From contig JAQTLN010000011.1 of assembly GCA_028714875.1 (NCBI GenBank), positions 1 to 64,000 of the forward strand: a DNA stretch of 64,000 nt, written 5' to 3'. The notes below the pieces were generated by a model. The model made no database searches and was not told the origin of the DNA. It saw only the letters and a list, made by a program, of their open reading frames with translations. The translations under genes were made by a program, and so were the position numbers. Every line of letters starts with the position of its first letter. The first letter of the stretch is position 1. Shown piece after piece: positions 1 to 9,467 of this stretch. Source of the stretch: Gallionellaceae bacterium. Its GTDB lineage: Bacteria; Pseudomonadota; Gammaproteobacteria; Burkholderiales; Thiobacillaceae.

Positions 1-86
1 TGCGGGAGACCCTGGAGAAGCTGCCGGCTTGGCCGAATAGCCGGATCGATGAGCTGCTGCCGTTGCGGGGCGTTTCCAACTCCTGA
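1..86 (+). pseudogene. C-terminal end of a transposase-like ORF (IS66-like tail), cut by window edge
   Basis: Frame 3 reads RETLEKLPAWPNSRIDELLPLRGVSNS*, resembling the C-terminus of IS66-type transposases; only 27 codons visible. Confidence 0.45.
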
Positions 87-126
87 CTTGCGGGCTTTCG
101 TACTGGTGGGACGGCTGGACGCTTAC

Positions 127-1295
127 GCGGCTTCATCGCTACCTGGCGATCCAACTCCAAGCTTGAGCGGGACGATCGTCAGGTAGTCGCCGCGCGCCAA
201 CCTGGCCTACGCCGGCGGCACGGGCGTTACGGCCGTAGGCCAGGTTGCGGCTTCATCGCTACCTGGCGATCCAACCCCAAGCTTGAGAAGGATGGTCGTC
301 AGGTAGCCGCTACGCGCCAACCTGACCTACGCGGGCGGCGCGGGCATTACGACCGTAGGCCAGGTTGCGGCTTCATCGCTACCTGGCGATCCAACCCCAA
401 GCTTGAGCGGGACGATCGTCAGGTAGTCGCCGCGCGCCAACCTGACCTACGCGGGCGGCGCGGGCTTTACGGCTGTAGGCCAGGTTGCGGCTTCATCGCT
501 ACCTGGCGATCCAACCCCAAGCTTGAGAGGGACGGTCGTCAGGTAGTCGCTACGCGCCAACCTGACCTACGCGGGCGGCGCGGGCATTACGACCGTAGGC
601 CAGGTTGCGGCTTCATCGCTACCTGGCGATCCAACCCCAAGCTTGAGTGGGACGATCGTCAGGTAGCCGCTGCGCGCCAACCTGACCTACGCCGGCGGCA
701 CTGGTGTTACGACCGTGGGCCAGGTTGCGGCTTCATCGCTACCTGGCGATCCAACCCCAAGCTTGAGCGGGACGATCGTCAAGTAGCCGCTGCGCGCCAA
801 CCTGACCTACTCGGGCGGCGCGGGCATTACGACCGTAGGCCAGGTTGCGGCTTCATCGCTACCTGGCGATCCAACCCCAAGCTTGAGCGGGACGATCGTC
901 AGGTAGTCGCTGCGCGCCAACCTGACCTACGCCGGCGGCACGGGCATTACGACCGTAGGCCAGGTTGCGGCTTTATCGCTACCTGGCGATCCAACCTCAA
1001 GCTTGAGAGGGACGGTCGTCAGGTAGTCGCTACGCGCCAACCTGACCTACGCGGGCGGCGCGGGCGTTACGGCCGTAGGCCAGGTTGCGGCTTCATCGCT
1101 ACCTGGCGATCCAACCTCAAGCTTGAGTGGGACGATCGTCAGGTAGTCGCTACGCGCCAACCTGATCTACGCTGGCGGCGCGGGCGTTACGGCCGTAGGC
1201 CAGGTTGCGGCTTTATCGCTACCTGGCGATCCAACCCCAAGCTTGAGCGGGACGATCGTCAGGTAGTCGCTGCGCGCCAACCTGACCTACGCCGG
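127..1295 (+). repeat. Array 1: ~10 tandem 120-bp BIME units, each with two REP-like hairpins
   Basis: Unit GTAGGCCAGGTTGCGGCTTCATCGCTACCTGGCGATCCAACCCCAAGCTTGAGCGGGACGATCGTCAGGTAGTCGCTGCGCGCCAACCTGACCTACGC... recurs at an exact 120-bp period without indels. Confidence 0.97.
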
Positions 1296-1309
1296 CTGCT
1301 CAATCACGG

Positions 1310-1576
1310 ACTGCTTCAAGTTGAAGTACTCTGCGGATGCATCAATGGCTTGCGTCATCGGCGCCCAGTTCGCGCATACGCGTGCTGAAAGTTTCAAAGC
1401 GGCTCACCCGCCAATTGCCGCTTTGCCTTCAGATAGTTACTGAAATGTTGTTTCCAGCGGATATCCGGCGGTACCGATTCGATCACGGCCAAGGGTCTTG
1501 ATCCCGTCAGCCATGATTGGAAGCGAACGCTAGCACGACGGCTCAAGATGTTGCGCTTCTTTGGCGAGAATGCCAC
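1310..1576 (-). pseudogene. Degraded ORF remnant, possibly nucleotidyltransferase substrate-binding (HEPN/NTSB)-like
   Basis: Minus-strand ORF contains DIRWKQHFSNYLKAKRQL, similar to N-termini of NTSB/HI0074-type proteins, then stops; further short open segments follow in other frames. Confidence 0.35.
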
Positions 1577-1587
1577 TTCAATGGTTT

Positions 1588-3012
1588 TCAGGGCACGAGG
1601 ACGTCCGTCAGCGGATGCCGTTGCCTGAGCGCCGTTGCCAGGGCCTGCTTGGCGCTGTCATCACCATGCACCAGGCGGATTTGTTTTGGTTTGCCGCGCA
1701 TGCGGCCGATGAAGTTGAGCAGGTCTTTCTGATCGGCGTGGGCGGAGTAGCCGCCGAGGGTGTGGATGCCGGCGAGGATGTCGTGGCGCTGGCCATCGAG
1801 TATCACGTAGCCACCCTTGGGGCCGTATTTCTGGATGTCTCTGCCCGGGGTGCCCGCCGCCTGGTAGCCGACGAACAGAACGTCGTGGCGTGGGTCGCCG
1901 AGCATGGCCTTGAGGTAGTTGACGATGCGGCCACCGCTGCACATGCCGCTGGCGGCGATGACGATGGCGGGGCGGGCGGTGCGTGCCAGGTAGTCCACCG
2001 TTTGCAGGTGGGTGGCATGGTCGTCGATGGTGGTGAGTTGTTCGAAGGCCAGGGGGTGGCGGCCAGCGGCCAGTTTGCGCCGGGCTTCGTTGTCCCAGTG
2101 TTCGCGCAGTTGTGCGTAGCCGGCGGTGAAGTCCGCCGCTAGAGGGGAGTCGACGATGATGTCCAGGTCGTCCCAATTCACGCCAGGCGCGGCGGGGCGC
2201 TGGCGGTTTTTGTGGATAATCTCTTCCAGCTCGTAGAGCAACTCCTGGGTGCGGCCGATGCTGAAGGCGGGAATGAGCACCGTGCCTTTGTTGCCGAAGG
2301 CGTGTTCGCACAGGGCTTGCAGGCGCTTGCGGCGGTCTTTTCGGCTTTCGTGGGTGCGGTCGCCATAGGTGCTTTCCAGGACGACGACATCGGCGGCATA
2401 GGGGGATTTGGGCGCGGGCAGCAGGGGAGTGTAAGGGGCGCCCAAGTCGCCGGAGAACACGATGCGTTGCTTGCCTTTACCCTGCTTCAACTCGAATTCG
2501 ACGTAAGCGGAACCGAGGATATGGCCGGCGGGGGAAAGCTTGACGCGCAACCCCGGGTCACCCGCGATGGCGGTGTGCCACTGCTTGTAGGGCAAGGCGA
2601 TGATCTGCTGGCGCATCTGCGCCAGGAAGCGGTCGATGAGGGTTTGGTTCCGGGTGAAGCCGATTTTGAGGGCATCTTCCAGCACCAGCGGCAAGAGTAC
2701 GGCGGAGGCCTGGCTACATAATATCGGCCCACGGAAACCGGCGGCCAGCAGGTAAGGAATGCGCCCGACATGGTCGATGTGAACATGGGTGACCACCAGG
2801 GCACGCACCTGATCGACAGGGAAAGTGATGTTGAGCCGATCGGCGCCGGCACCCTCGCTGGAAGTCTCCGCACCCTGAAACAGGCCACAATCCACCAGCA
2901 CGGACTGGCCATCGCCCAGGGCAAGTTGGTGGCAGGAGCCGGTGACACCATTGACGGCGCCGTGGTGGGTGATTGCGTATGGAGGGTTCGTGATTGTTGC
3001 AGTAGCACACAT
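1588..3012 (-). CDS. MBL-fold beta-CASP RNA-processing exonuclease/metallohydrolase family protein
   Basis: 474 aa; HVHIDHVGRIPYLL metal-binding motif, late IAASGMCSGGRIVNYL and GGYSAHADQKDLL motifs typical of beta-CASP/RMMBL proteins. Confidence 0.88.
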   Translation of the reverse strand: MCATATITNPPYAITHHGAVNGVTGSCHQLALGDGQSVLVDCGLFQGAETSSEGAGADRLNITFPVDQVRALVVTHVHIDHVGRIPYLLAAGFRGPILCSQASAVLLPLVLEDALKIGFTRNQTLIDRFLAQMRQQIIALPYKQWHTAIAGDPGLRVKLSPAGHILGSAYVEFELKQGKGKQRIVFSGDLGAPYTPLLPAPKSPYAADVVVLESTYGDRTHESRKDRRKRLQALCEHAFGNKGTVLIPAFSIGRTQELLYELEEIIHKNRQRPAAPGVNWDDLDIIVDSPLAADFTAGYAQLREHWDNEARRKLAAGRHPLAFEQLTTIDDHATHLQTVDYLARTARPAIVIAASGMCSGGRIVNYLKAMLGDPRHDVLFVGYQAAGTPGRDIQKYGPKGGYVILDGQRHDILAGIHTLGGYSAHADQKDLLNFIGRMRGKPKQIRLVHGDDSAKQALATALRQRHPLTDVLVP

Positions 3013-3081
3013 ATGGGTACCTCCCGTGTTATTGCCGCGTCAGCGGGCATCGAGTTGGGTGTGATTTTAGTCGTAGGGCTG

Positions 3082-3292
3082 TTGGATCGTCAGGTAGCGA
3101 TGAAGCCGCAACCTGACCTACGTCGTCTTCGCAGGTGCAGCCATCCCCAGTAGGTCAGGTTGGCGCGCAGCGACTACCTGACGTAGCGCGCCGCTCAAGT
3201 TGGATCGTCAGGTAGCGATGAGGCCGCAACCTGACCTACTCGGGAATATTCACGCTTGCGTTGTAGGCCAGGTTGCCGGAGGCTACCTGGCA
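3082..3292. repeat. RAYT-proximal REP cluster (left)
   Basis: Hairpins TCAGGTAGCGATGAAGCCGCAACCTGA, TCAGGTTGGCGCGCAGCGACTACCTGA, TCAGGTAGCGATGAGGCCGCAACCTGA and CCAGGTTGCCGGAGGCTACCTGG. Confidence 0.93.
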
Positions 3293-3316
3293 CTCCAGAC
3301 ATCAAACCTCCACGCC

Positions 3317-3820
3317 ATGTCCAACCTGCGCCGCTACCCCAACCTTGGCCATCCGGTATTTCTCACCTTGGTTTGCCGCGACCGTGCGGCGCATCTAGGC
3401 AGCGACAATGCGAAGACGTTGTTTCTCGAAGTGTTGCGTGGTCTCAAGCAGGAACAGCCGTTCCGACTGCACGCACATGTTCTGCTGGATGACCATGCTC
3501 ATCTGTTGCTGACCCCGGAAGATGGTAATTTCTCCGCGATCGTGCAGCGCTTGAAATTGCGTTTCACGCGGCGCTTGAAGCGAGGGGAATCGGCTTCCCT
3601 CTGGCAACCGCGCTTCTGGGATCACTGCATTCGCGATGCCGATGATCTCGCCCGGCATCTCGACTACATCCACTACAACCCGGTGAAACATGGACTGGCC
3701 CGATGCGCGACGGAATATCCCTGGTCTTCTTTGCGTGCACATATCGAGCGCGGACATTACCCGGCGGATTGGGGTAGTTCAGGCATGCCAGGGCAACTGG
3801 CCGGGATGGAGTTGGAGTAA
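3317..3820 (+). CDS. REP-associated tyrosine transposase (RAYT, Y1_Tnp/HUH family)
   Basis: 167 aa from ATG at 3317; HVLLDDHAHLLLTPE (HUH-type HAH), DYIHYNPVKHGL catalytic-Tyr motif, SLWQPRFWDHCI; flanked on both sides by REP hairpins. Confidence 0.93.
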   Translation: MSNLRRYPNLGHPVFLTLVCRDRAAHLGSDNAKTLFLEVLRGLKQEQPFRLHAHVLLDDHAHLLLTPEDGNFSAIVQRLKLRFTRRLKRGESASLWQPRFWDHCIRDADDLARHLDYIHYNPVKHGLARCATEYPWSSLRAHIERGHYPADWGSSGMPGQLAGMELE

Positions 3821-3840
3821 TGGCAAGTTTGAGGGAACGA

Positions 3841-4105
3841 TCGTCAGGTAGCCTCCGGCAACCTGACCTACGCTGGCGGCACAAGCGTTACGGCCGTAGG
3901 TCAGGTTGCAGCTTCATCGCTACCTGACGATCCAACTTGAGCGGCACTATCGTCAGGTAGTCGCTACGCGCCAACCTGACCTACGCCGGCGACACAAGCG
4001 TTACGGCCGTAGGTCAGGTTGCGGCTTCATCGCTACCTGACGATCCAACTTGAGCGGCACTGTCGTCAGGTAGTCGCTACGCGCCAACCTGACCTACGAG
4101 GTATC
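3841..4105. repeat. RAYT-proximal REP/BIME cluster (right), 113-bp period
   Basis: TCAGGTAGCCTCCGGCAACCTGA followed by two units with GTAGGTCAGGTTG starts at 3896 and 4009. Confidence 0.93.
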
Positions 4106-5524
4106 ACGAGACAGGCGGGCCAGACACGTTGTCGCGAGTTCCACTGCGCGTTCCTGGTTGTCGGCCTCGGCATAGCAGCGCAGCTCCGGGGCGTTACCGG
4201 AGGGACGCAGGTGGATGATTTCACCGTTCTCGAAGGTAATGCGCAGGCCGTCGGTTTGATTCATTTCCTTGGGCTCGCCGCACAAGGCGCCCAATAAATC
4301 GGCCAGGGCGGATTTCGACGCGACCAGTTGTTGCAGCAGTTGCCGGCTGCGTTCGCTGGGAAAGGATTGCAGGCGGTCGCTGGCTGTGTAGCGAGGCGGC
4401 AGGCCAAGGCTCAATTGCGATAGCTTGAGCCCCTGCGCGCGCGCGCTGACCAGGAGGGCGAGCATCGGCAACACGGCATCACGGGTGGGCAGGGCATGCA
4501 GGATGCGGCCGTCTTTTTCCAGACAGCTGCCGAGCAGGAAGCCGCCATTGGCTTCGAAGCCCGCGATGTTTTGGGTGCCCGACGCCGCCAGGTGTTCCAT
4601 CGCTTCAATCACATAGGGGGAGCCGATGCGGGTCCGCATAACTTGTTTGAAGACACCGGATTTTTCGATGGCGGTGTTGCAACTGACCGGGGTTGCGAGC
4701 GCTTCGGCACCGAGGTAGCGGGCGCACAGGAGCCCGACGATGTCGCCGCGAAACCAGTTGCCCTGTTCGTCGCCGATCAGAGGCCGGTCGGCGTCGCCGT
4801 CGGTGGACAGGATGGCGTCGAAACCATATTCGGCGGACCAGCGGCGTGCTTGCTGGACATCGGCTTCGCTGACGGCTTCGGTATCAATGGGAGTGAATTC
4901 GTCAGTGCGACCGAGGGAAATCACTTCAGCGCCTAGCGCTTCGAGTAGTTCCCGCAGCAGATCACGCGCGACGCTGGAGTGTTCATAAAAGCCGAGGCGC
5001 ATGCCGGCCAGGGCCTGGGGCGGGAAGAAGTCCAGATAGCGATCCAGGTACATCCGGCGGACGGCGGGATTGACTGCCGGCAGCATGGTGCTCAGGCCCT
5101 GCTCGGGCAGTTGCACGTCGGCCACCGCAATGCCGGCTTCATCCGACTTGGTGATTTCGCCCGTGGCGCGATAAAACTTGATGCCGTTGCGATCGAAGGG
5201 AATGTGGCTGCCGGTGACCACGAGCGCGGCGACGCCTTGCTCCTGGGCATAGTAGGCGAGCGCGGGGGTGGGCAGTGGCCCGCAGTAATCAATCTCCAGG
5301 CCGGCATGGCGGATGGCGGCCGCGCAGGCTGCGGCGATTTCGGGGCTGCTCGGGCGCAGGTCGATTCCCAACGCAACGCGGCTGCCGGCGGGCGCTGCGA
5401 TTACTTGCAGAAACGCGGTGGTGTAGGCGTAGCAAACCGCATCGGTCATGTCGGCTACCAGGCCGCGCGCGCCGCTGGTGCCGAAGCGCACGCCGCTGGA
5501 GTCCATGAGAGTTTGGATTTTCAT
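4094..5524 (-). CDS. Phosphohexomutase (phosphomannomutase/phosphoglucomutase family)
   Basis: 476 aa; RFGTSGARGLVADMT, VTGSHIPFDRNGIKFY active-site region, STDGDADRPLI, GFEANGGFLLG. Confidence 0.9.
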   Translation of the reverse strand: MKIQTLMDSSGVRFGTSGARGLVADMTDAVCYAYTTAFLQVIAAPAGSRVALGIDLRPSSPEIAAACAAAIRHAGLEIDYCGPLPTPALAYYAQEQGVAALVVTGSHIPFDRNGIKFYRATGEITKSDEAGIAVADVQLPEQGLSTMLPAVNPAVRRMYLDRYLDFFPPQALAGMRLGFYEHSSVARDLLRELLEALGAEVISLGRTDEFTPIDTEAVSEADVQQARRWSAEYGFDAILSTDGDADRPLIGDEQGNWFRGDIVGLLCARYLGAEALATPVSCNTAIEKSGVFKQVMRTRIGSPYVIEAMEHLAASGTQNIAGFEANGGFLLGSCLEKDGRILHALPTRDAVLPMLALLVSARAQGLKLSQLSLGLPPRYTASDRLQSFPSERSRQLLQQLVASKSALADLLGALCGEPKEMNQTDGLRITFENGEIIHLRPSGNAPELRCYAEADNQERAVELATTCLARLSRDTS

Positions 5525-5566
5525 AGGGTCTGGTTGCTTGTTAATAGATTGCTGAAAGTTTGATTG

Positions 5567-6692
5567 TGGATCGCCAGGTAGCGATGAAGCCGCAACCTGG
5601 CCTACGGTCGTAATGCCTGCGCCGCCCGAGTAGGTCAGGTTGGCGCGTAGCGACTACCTGACGTTCGTCCCGCGCAAGCTTGAGGTTGGATCGCCAGGTA
5701 GCGATGAAGCCGCAACCTGGCCTACGGCCGTAAAGCCTGTGCCGCCCGCGTAGGTCAGGTTGGCGCGTAGCGTCTACCTGACGTTGGTATCGCTCAAGCT
5801 TGGGGTTGGATCGCCAGGTAGCGATGAAGCCGCAACCTGGCCTACGGTCGTAACGCCTGTGCCGCCCGCGTAGGTCAGGTTGGCGCGTAGCGTCTACCTG
5901 ACGTTGGTATCGCTCAAGCTTGGGGTTGGATCGCCAGGTAGCGATGAAGCCGCAACCTGGCCTACGGCCGTAACGCCCGCGCCGCCGGCGTAGGTCAGGT
6001 TGGCGCGTAGCGACTACCTGACGATCGTCCCGCTCAAGCTTGGGGTTGGATCGCCAGGTAGCGATAAAGCCGCAACCTGGCCTACGGCCGTAACGCCCGC
6101 GCCGCCCACGTAGGTCAGGTTGGCGCGTGGCGACTACCTGACGATCGTTCCTCTCAAACTTGGGGTTGGATCGCCAGGTAGCGATGAAGCCGCAACCTGG
6201 CCTACGGTCGTAACGCCCGCGCCGCCGGCGTAGGTCAGGTTGGCGCGCAGCGACTACCTGACGTTCGTCCCGCTCAAGCTTGAGGTTGGATCGCCAGGTA
6301 GCGATAAAGCCGCAACCTGGCCTACGGTCGTAACGCCCGCGCCGCCGGCGTAGGTCAGGTTGGCGCGTGGCGGCTACCTGACGATCGTCCCGCTCAAGCT
6401 TGGGGTTGGATCGCCAGGTAGCGATAAAGCCGCAACCTGGCCTACGGCCGTAACGCCCGCGCCGCCGGCGTAGGTCAGGTTGGCGCGTGGCGACTACCTG
6501 ACGATCGTCCCACTCAAGCTTGAGGTTGGATCGCCAGGTAGCGATGAAGCCGCAACCTGGCCTACGGCCGTAACGCCCGCGCCGCCGGCGTAGGTCAGGT
6601 TGGCGCGTAGCGACTACCTGACGATCGTCCCTCTCAAGCTTGGAGTTGGATCGCCAGGCAGCGATAAAGCCGCAACCTGGCCTACGGCCGGC
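5567..6692 (-). repeat. Array 2: 9 complete 120-bp BIME units plus one terminal hairpin, inverted relative to array 1
   Basis: GGATCGCCAGGTAGCGATGAAGCCGCAACCTGGCCTACGG...GTAGGTCAGGTTGGCGCGTAGCGACTACCTGACG... repeated at exact 120-bp period. Confidence 0.97.
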
Positions 6693-6698
6693 TGTCAC

Positions 6699-7238
6699 TC
6701 AGGCGGCGACGAGGTGGTTGGCGGGGATCATGATCTGCTTTTCCCGGCCAAGCAGCGTCAGCAGCACGGCAACGCGTTCATCGGCGACATTCGAAACCAG
6801 CCCGGACAATCCTTTCAAGGGGCCGTCCGCGACCACAACCCGCACCCCCACCGCGAAGAGCGCGGCTTTGTCCGCCACTTGGCGCCCGCTCTGTTCAGCC
6901 AGTTCGCGTATCGCTTCGACCGCGGCATCGCTCAGCGTGGCGACCTCGCCGCCAAAACGAACCAAGCCAAGAACGCCGGGTGTACTCCGTATCGGGGCGA
7001 TGCTCTGTCCGTCACGGCCGCGGCGCACGAAGCAGTAGCGCGGGAACATGACTTGTTCCGTTCTGCTCCATGCCTCTTTCTTGCGCTCCCAATGAGCCAG
7101 CATGGGCAGGTAGACCGCGTAGCCTTGCTCGTTCAGCCGAGCCAGAGCTTTGGCTTCCTGCCGGGGTTTGGTTTGGCAGACATACCAGGCTTGAGCGGGG
7201 GTGGACGTGGACATCAGAGCTCTTGCCGCGCGTGACAA
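6699..7238 (-). CDS. rfaH: RfaH/NusG-family transcription elongation factor
   Basis: 179 aa; AQAWYVCQTKPRQEAKALARLNEQGYAVYLPM and C-terminal KOW-like GLSGLVSNV; adjacent to EPS genes. Confidence 0.85.
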   Translation of the reverse strand: MSRAARALMSTSTPAQAWYVCQTKPRQEAKALARLNEQGYAVYLPMLAHWERKKEAWSRTEQVMFPRYCFVRRGRDGQSIAPIRSTPGVLGLVRFGGEVATLSDAAVEAIRELAEQSGRQVADKAALFAVGVRVVVADGPLKGLSGLVSNVADERVAVLLTLLGREKQIMIPANHLVAA

Positions 7239-7247
7239 CCCAATTGA

Positions 7248-9467
7248 TCAGTTCTTCTTGTAGGAGTAGCTGTAGACATAGCCGTGGTAACCATAGCGAT
7301 AGCGCTGTCTGACGGTATCCATGTCGTTGAAAACGAAGCCCTTGACCTGCACGCCCGCCTGATTGAGGCGTTTCACCGCCTGTTCGATTTCACGGATGGG
7401 GTGCTTGCCGGCACGGGCAACCATCAGCGTGGCTCCGGTATGGCGGCCGATGATGGCGGCGTCTGACACGGCCAGGATGGGCGGGGCATCGACGATGAGG
7501 ATATCGAACAGGTCGCCTAGTTGTTCCAGCAATTCGCCGAAGTGAGCGTGCATCAGCAATTCGGAGGGGTTGGGCGGGCGTTGGCCGGTGGTGACGACCG
7601 ACAGCCCAGGCACCGAAGTCGGCTTGACGATCTCACCCAGGCTGGCCGTGCCGCTGACATATTCGGATACGCCAATCTCGCGCTGCATGCCGAATTCGCG
7701 ATGGATGTGGCCTTTGCGCAAGTCGGCATCAACGATGGCAACTCGTTTGCCGGACTGGGCCAGCACCGCACCCAGGTTTTTGGAGATGAAACTCTTGCCG
7801 ATGCCAGGACTGGGGCCGGTGATAAGTAGCGAACCCTTGTCGGCATCCAGCAGGGCGAAGTGGATGGTGGTGCGCAGACTGCGCAGGCTTTCCACTGCAT
7901 CGTCTTCGGGATAGTCGATGGCGAGTAGTTCACCCTTTTTCTTGCCAGTCTTGATGTCATGCGCCAGCGTCACTTCGGTCTTGCTGTGCGGGATGGTGGC
8001 GTACACCGGCAGGCCGATTTGTTTCTCGATCTTGTCCGGATCTTCCACCATCACACGCAGGGAGCGGATCACCCAGATGACCATGACGCTGAGCAACAGA
8101 CCGAGTATGAAGGAAACAGCGATAATCAAGGCGCCCTTGGGAGAGACGGGTTTGCTGTCGACCATCGCGGCGTCGATGATGCGCGCTTCACCCACCGTTC
8201 CCTCTTTGGAGACACGCAGTTGCTGGGCGCTGTTGAGCAGTTCCGTATACAACTTGGTGGAAACCTCGACATCACGCTGAAGACGCAAGGCGGTCTGCTG
8301 CGTAACCGGCAAACGAGCGACGCTGCTGTCCAACTGGGCACGCATACCTTTGAGGCGTGCAATCTGGGAGTCGATGGACTGCATGCGCGGGTGTTCCGAA
8401 GTGAACTGCTGCCGCAATTCGTCCCGTTGCTGCTGCAACTTCACCGTTTCCTTGTCGATATCGACTATGGAAGTCAGCACACCTTGGGTTTCCAGGGCAA
8501 GATCGACCGACCCCTTGCTCTGTCGATACGCATTGAAGGCCGCTGTGGCGTTATCCATCTGCGCTTTCAGCGTGGGCAATTGGCTGTCGAGGAACTTGAG
8601 CGTTTTTTCCGCTTCGGCAGAACGGTATTCCACGTTCTGTCGCACATAGCCGTTGATGACTTCATCCAGAATCATGGGAAGCAGTACCGTATCCGCATGC
8701 TTGAGTGTCACTTCGATGATGCCTGACTGCTTGGCACGTTCCTTGACCGTGTACTGTCCTTGCAAAGCGTTGATGGCATCTTGTTGAAGCAGCTTGGCCA
8801 GCCTGAAGCGGGTACCCGGCCTGGCCGTCAGTTGCGAGACGAACAGCTTCATGCCACGCGAAGCGGCTGGCTGGCCTACTTGGCCCTCCAGCAGCTTGTT
8901 GTCGTCCTCATCGAAGACCTGGTAGTTACCAGTCTTGCCGGCTACCAGGGTGAGCTGCTTGTTGGTAAGCACGCGAGGCACTTCCAGTGTCTCAACTTTG
9001 ATCTGTTCACCGCCCCAGGCGTAGCTGGACAGTCCGAACAAGGGATCGGCCAAATCCGTACCTGCATAGCGCCGCGCTTTGGCCTTGCCGATTACCGGGA
9101 AGTAGCCAGGTACCGCCACGATGTCCAGTTTGAGCTTGTCCACCACACGTCCAAGGATCATGCGGGATTGCAGGATTTCCAACTGCGCCGCAACCGAGGT
9201 GCTATCTCCCAATAGCGGCTGCAATTCCTTGAGCGCGGTCAGCCCCCCCCCCCCTTTCTTGTCGTCCACCTGTAGCAGGGCATCCGCCTGGTAGACGGGC
9301 GTAGCCACATACAGATAGGCGGCACCCAGCAGCAAAGCGGAAAAAGTGACCGCGACTATCAGCCACTTGTATTCCAGCAAAGTGGCGAAAATTTCACCCA
9401 GGTTGATTTCATCATCGCCGTCCTCTGCAATGGCGTTGGGCGCGGAACTGATCTGATCTGCGGACAT
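7248..9467 (-). CDS. wzc: Polysaccharide biosynthesis tyrosine autokinase (Wzc-like)
   Basis: 739 aa; N-terminal Wzz-like domain, Walker motif LLITGPSPGIGKSF, VAIVDADLRKGHIHREFG, C-terminal Tyr cluster RQRYRYGYHGYVYSYSYKKN. Confidence 0.92.
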   Translation of the reverse strand: MSADQISSAPNAIAEDGDDEINLGEIFATLLEYKWLIVAVTFSALLLGAAYLYVATPVYQADALLQVDDKKGGGGLTALKELQPLLGDSTSVAAQLEILQSRMILGRVVDKLKLDIVAVPGYFPVIGKAKARRYAGTDLADPLFGLSSYAWGGEQIKVETLEVPRVLTNKQLTLVAGKTGNYQVFDEDDNKLLEGQVGQPAASRGMKLFVSQLTARPGTRFRLAKLLQQDAINALQGQYTVKERAKQSGIIEVTLKHADTVLLPMILDEVINGYVRQNVEYRSAEAEKTLKFLDSQLPTLKAQMDNATAAFNAYRQSKGSVDLALETQGVLTSIVDIDKETVKLQQQRDELRQQFTSEHPRMQSIDSQIARLKGMRAQLDSSVARLPVTQQTALRLQRDVEVSTKLYTELLNSAQQLRVSKEGTVGEARIIDAAMVDSKPVSPKGALIIAVSFILGLLLSVMVIWVIRSLRVMVEDPDKIEKQIGLPVYATIPHSKTEVTLAHDIKTGKKKGELLAIDYPEDDAVESLRSLRTTIHFALLDADKGSLLITGPSPGIGKSFISKNLGAVLAQSGKRVAIVDADLRKGHIHREFGMQREIGVSEYVSGTASLGEIVKPTSVPGLSVVTTGQRPPNPSELLMHAHFGELLEQLGDLFDILIVDAPPILAVSDAAIIGRHTGATLMVARAGKHPIREIEQAVKRLNQAGVQVKGFVFNDMDTVRQRYRYGYHGYVYSYSYKKN

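Follow-up and report, generated by a model that had tools for sequence, protein, structure and literature searches.

The gene for a REP-associated tyrosine transposase (RAYT) in the 64,000-nucleotide stretch of Gallionellaceae DNA analyzed here (hereafter, the window) is flanked by two inverted copies of one short hairpin sequence. Do these copies mark the ends of a mobile unit that carries the gene, as a preliminary description had suggested they may, or are they members of a wider repeat family? The best explanation is a standard REPtron (probability about 0.9), that is, a single-copy RAYT gene lying between inverted cognate REPs with GTAG heads, embedded in BIMEs, and predicted to move REPs in trans. 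The features of the locus are as follows.

180..1284, BIME array: 19 alternating B-/A+ REPs, 120-bp period
3089..3121, minus strand: REP type A, upstream BIME
3150..3182, plus strand: REP type B, upstream BIME
3207..3239, minus strand: REP type A, upstream BIME
3263..3291, plus strand: upstream cognate REP, type C, GTAGGCCAGGTTGCCGGAGGCTACCTGGC; GTAG head, GCCAGGT/ACCTGGC stem, T-T mismatch, GCC-GGA-GGC tip
3317..3820, plus strand: RAYT / TnpA-REP gene, 167 aa; HUH motif HAH at residues 60-62, Tyr117
3843..3871, minus strand: downstream cognate REP, type C, inverted, GTAGGTCAGGTTGCCGGAGGCTACCTGAC; same tip, stem GTCAGGT/ACCTGAC
3896..3928, plus strand: REP type A, downstream BIME
3952..3984, minus strand: REP type B, downstream BIME
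4009..4041, plus strand: REP type A, downstream BIME
4065..4097, minus strand: REP type B, downstream BIME
5575..6679, BIME array: 19 alternating A-/B+ REPs, 120-bp period, in mirror orientation to the 180-1284 array

The RAYT gene and its flanking hairpins

The 167-aa product scored 135 bits against the NCBIfam model for REP-associated tyrosine transposases (NF047646, REP_Tyr_transpos; cut-off 80) and also matched Pfam Y1_Tnp, while its score with the IS200 model NF033573 was only 22 bits, well under the cut-off of 55 for that group. No internal stop was found in the ORF (3317-3820). The closest solved structure is that of E. coli TnpA-REP (4er8; E=1.6e-28, 102.7 bits), and the alignment places HAH 60-62 and Tyr117 opposite the HMH motif and Tyr115 of 4er8 (numbered along the 4er8 row of the alignment), the latter of which we take to be the catalytic tyrosine. 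The preliminary description took the RAYT to be intact and accompanied by paired inverted REPs, and this is borne out by the family score, the motifs and the two flanking REPs; the catalytic motifs, which it had also considered intact, appear so from their position in the alignment. The only GGAGG shortly upstream of the RAYT start codon is found at 3278-3282, 34 nt from the ATG and within the tip of the upstream REP; no other Shine-Dalgarno-like motif was evident upstream of the ATG.

The sequences at 3269-3289 and 3845-3865, one on each side of the ORF, are exact 21-nt reverse complements, just as first reported. Each of these arms forms the inner part of a REP of 29 nt whose outer end carries a GTAG head, and the upstream REP starts 54 nt 5' of the ATG. 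The sole difference between the two REPs is a compensatory stem pair (C-G upstream, T-A downstream), and it is this change that ends their exact identity at 21 bp. Both hairpins are predicted to be far more stable than shuffled sequences (z -4.4 to -5.2). Within the window, the 21-mer is present only at the two RAYT-flanking sites, but a search of the whole genome at up to three mismatches gave 28 matches, compared to 0 for a reversed, uncomplemented control pattern, so the inverted pair is not a product of chance. A third match to GCCGGAGGC, at 63983-63991, was dismissed as fortuitous since at least as many matches arose in 30 of 100 shuffles, and no Rfam families were found in positions 1-8000 of the window. 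The locus thus shows what is expected of a REPtron: the gene sits between two inverted REPs, these are palindromes with a GT(A/G)G head that recur in the genome, and there is a single full-length RAYT for this REP type.

Subtypes, distribution and pairing of the REPs

DNA folding divides the REPs into three types (A, B and C) that share one scaffold, consisting of a free GTAG, a 7-bp stem and a T-T mismatch, and that differ in the tip above it. In type A the tip is a GCG/CGC inner stem with a 7-nt loop, in type B a G-C pair, a mismatch, a CGC/GCG inner stem and a triloop, and in type C (GCC-GNA-GGC) a 3-bp stem and a triloop, which is GGA in the RAYT-flanking copies. The distinction drawn previously between a 7-nt loop beside the gene and 11-nt loops elsewhere does not survive folding, as these are different tips on the common scaffold and there is no special 7-nt loop. 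GNA triloops closed by a C-G pair form unusually stable DNA mini-hairpins. Tips of this kind recur near RAYTs of about 46% identity (loci L026, L027 and L159) and in the type B REPs of the window; a literature search on REP triloops found nothing specific.

All REPs of the window other than the gene-adjacent pair are of type A or B, and to this extent the earlier notion of a private loop type holds. It fails across the genome, where a pattern search recovered five further exact CCGGAGG copies, none of them at a RAYT, and about 14 near-identical relatives, mostly CCGAAGG. Type C copies away from the gene thus have GAA rather than GGA as the majority tip. All five exact copies, and most of the near-identical ones, form one half of a convergent doublet with an A or B REP. 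Scattering of CCGGAGG REPs away from the gene boundary was the very pattern that the preliminary description had named as speaking against its proposal.

The genome holds 183 REPs of types A, B and C, of which 47 lie within 7 kb of the RAYT gene, mostly in arrays. Copies with an exact head number 127, compared to 0–2 in each of 22 congeners, so that among the congeners compared the class is nearly confined to the source species. No RAYT above 48% identity was found in these 22 congeners, and a burst of REPs in the one species is expected if the RAYT drives their amplification, although tandem expansion, or a transposase that has since been lost, could also account for the excess.

The arrays at 180-1284 and 5575-6679 are 92% identical as an inverted repeat, and bracket an MBL-fold gene, the REPtron and a phosphomannomutase-like gene. 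A 385-aa ORF on the minus strand (5541-6698), with RRRGRYGRRPGCG repeats, is merely a translation of the second array, in which a period divisible by three (120 bp) keeps the frame open, and does not merit annotation as a protein. Closer to the gene, the REP order is also mirror-like: A- B+ A- C+ [RAYT] C- A+ B- A+ B-. After a single insertion of the RAYT into one pre-existing array, the REPs to its left and right would keep a common orientation; the mirror order instead suggests that REPs were amplified outward starting from the gene, or that inverted recombination took place. That simple insertion into a pre-existing BIME leaves this order unexplained is a point against the REPtron account.

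Among adjacent convergent pairs of all A, B and C REPs, 54 are A/B, 10 A/C, 8 B/C and 4 A/A, with no B/B or C/C. Like-subtype pairs made up 4 of the 37 isolated short doublets (gap of at most 41 nt), compared to 13.0 expected (P=0.0003, label shuffling), the four being A/A doublets with gaps of 14–40 nt. The sole C/C facing pair in the genome is that flanking the RAYT gene, where the two REPs are 555 bp apart. The absence of C/C doublets is not significant when taken alone (P=0.09), and the C/C arrangement is a weak sign of special status. Heterodimers of REPs with unlike loops are already known to be favored in Enterobacteriaceae and other groups (PMC3733652).

RAYT loci in the genome and in relatives

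The RAYT gene is single-copy, and the next RAYT of the genome is 41% identical to it. None of the other RAYT loci of the genome (L017-L021) has a REP of the GTAG A/B/C class nearby, and two of them, one intact (L019) and one broken (L021), lie between inverted REPs of their own, of 33–38 nt and different sequence. At L021 (G000:C2:187300-191000), the gene is broken by a TGA and the inverted REPs of 33 nt on its two sides remain 100% complementary, which suggests that it was inactivated recently. A RAYT-like segment of 32% identity is also found within a 442-aa open frame (L015, G000:C22:10404-10694), possibly a larger relative of the family.

Inverted matches of at least 14 nt between the gene flanks were present at 48 of 95 RAYT loci compared (a set that includes a few duplicates), but at only 5 of 150 mismatched controls. 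Beside a 48%-identical RAYT (L024), GTAGGTCAGGTTGC-NNN-GCTACCTGAC occurs on both sides, with the same head, stem and T-T mismatch in a shorter triloop form. At a 46%-identical RAYT (L026) the tips flanking the gene are both C-type (GAA and GCA), whereas at L027, L159 and L160 other tip types adjoin the gene on at least one side, so a C-type tip is not a general mark of RAYT-adjacent REPs. Head, stem and mismatch persist across RAYTs of about 48% identity, while the gene-adjacent tip varies.

The REPtron model is already known (PMC2817692, PMC3733652, PMC6006769), and the source locus fits it well. The placement of RAYT genes between inverted copies of their cognate REPs has been known since 2010 (Nunvar et al., PMC2817692). 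In the Stenotrophomonas and Pseudomonas REPtrons of that study, as here, the RAYT always lies between two inverted REPs with GT(A/G)G heads, the cognate REPs are scattered in the genome and show compensatory stem changes, and one RAYT is directly joined to a BIME, a further likeness to the source locus; unlike them, the source genome has several tip types for its RAYT and mostly heterotypic doublets. The E. coli system of TnpA-REP with Y and Z REPs (4er8; GTAG-3 family, PMC3733652; PMC6006769) shares long hairpins with a stem-tip mismatch, several tip subtypes, doublets of unlike subtypes, and REP pairs beside the gene. Its protein is only moderately similar to the source RAYT (102.7 bits), and the E. 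coli REPtron is reported to contain Y and Z2 pairs, in contrast to the single tip type shared by the two gene-adjacent REPs here. A Y1 HUH transposase fold and hairpin ends are also common to IS200/IS605, but those elements lack terminal inverted repeats (PMC2817692), and the source RAYT differs in being single-copy in its genome, with inverted REP flanks and scattered non-autonomous repeats.

Interpretation of the flanking pair

By analogy with the E. coli work, the RAYT protein most likely recognizes REP hairpins in single-stranded form by their GTAG head, their 7-bp stem and the mismatch beneath the tip. Cleavage at GTAG would use Tyr117, and the enzyme would act in trans, moving or amplifying REPs and their doublets throughout the chromosome. 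The pair beside the gene would then be the nearest substrate of the enzyme, and possibly a cis-regulatory hairpin.

The flanking pair is unlikely to bound a RAYT transposon that moves as a unit. Such an element would span the 609 bp from GTAG at 3263 to CTAC at 3871, and would excise and insert in the manner of IS200/IS605; the GTAG heads at both outer ends, the identical tips, and the restriction of C/C pairing to the RAYT flanks could be read in this way. The gene is, however, single-copy, congeners are without an ortholog above 48% identity, the type C hairpin is also found without the gene, in C/A and C/B doublets, and the type of REP next to the RAYT differs among relatives, all of which leaves self-mobility, and with it the idea that the pair marks the ends of a mobile unit, very improbable. 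The MBL-fold and phosphomannomutase neighbors are found in congeners, where homology stops at the gene ends, and they are adjacent only in one (G016), in a different, convergent arrangement. As the two are not adjacent in congeners in the source arrangement, no empty site could be joined.

The remaining readings ask what the type C flanks might do, or why they are alike. A role of their own, either as master ends templating new REPs or as an mRNA leader and terminator hairpin controlling RAYT expression, is suggested by both gene-adjacent REPs being type C when the rest of the window has A or B, by the similar arrangement at L026, and by the upstream hairpin lying just 5' of the ATG and holding the only GGAGG there. 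We consider it unlikely, given that type C copies elsewhere are ordinary doublet halves with mostly GAA tips, that L027, L159 and L160 carry other types beside the gene, and that the lack of C/C doublets does not reach significance alone. It is also quite improbable that the GNA-triloop type C has a function of its own as a terminal form, marking RAYT genes and pairing with the longer-tipped A or B REPs to seed new doublets, so that donor or end identity would be set by the tip. More plausible, but tentative, is that the gene-adjacent REPs are older or accidental members of the family, in which C/C is allowed since at 555 bp apart they cannot form a long cruciform. The avoidance of like pairs in close doublets favors this, as does the proposal that heterodimers escape the removal of long hairpins (PMC3733652), whereas the four closely spaced A/A doublets, and the predominance of homodimers in some other genomes (PMC3733652), do not. 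Such an origin is compatible with the REPtron and bears solely on the likeness of the two flanks.

Apart from one modest regularity, the pairing of unlike subtypes in short doublets with C/C confined to the RAYT flanks, the locus reads as a routine REPtron. Mixed loop types and REP heterodimers were described in 2013, and the pairing of unlike REPs was noted to have no obvious explanation (PMC3733652). Combining one RAYT with three tip types of REP and a burst of REPs restricted to the species, the genome could help to test why unlike REPs are paired.
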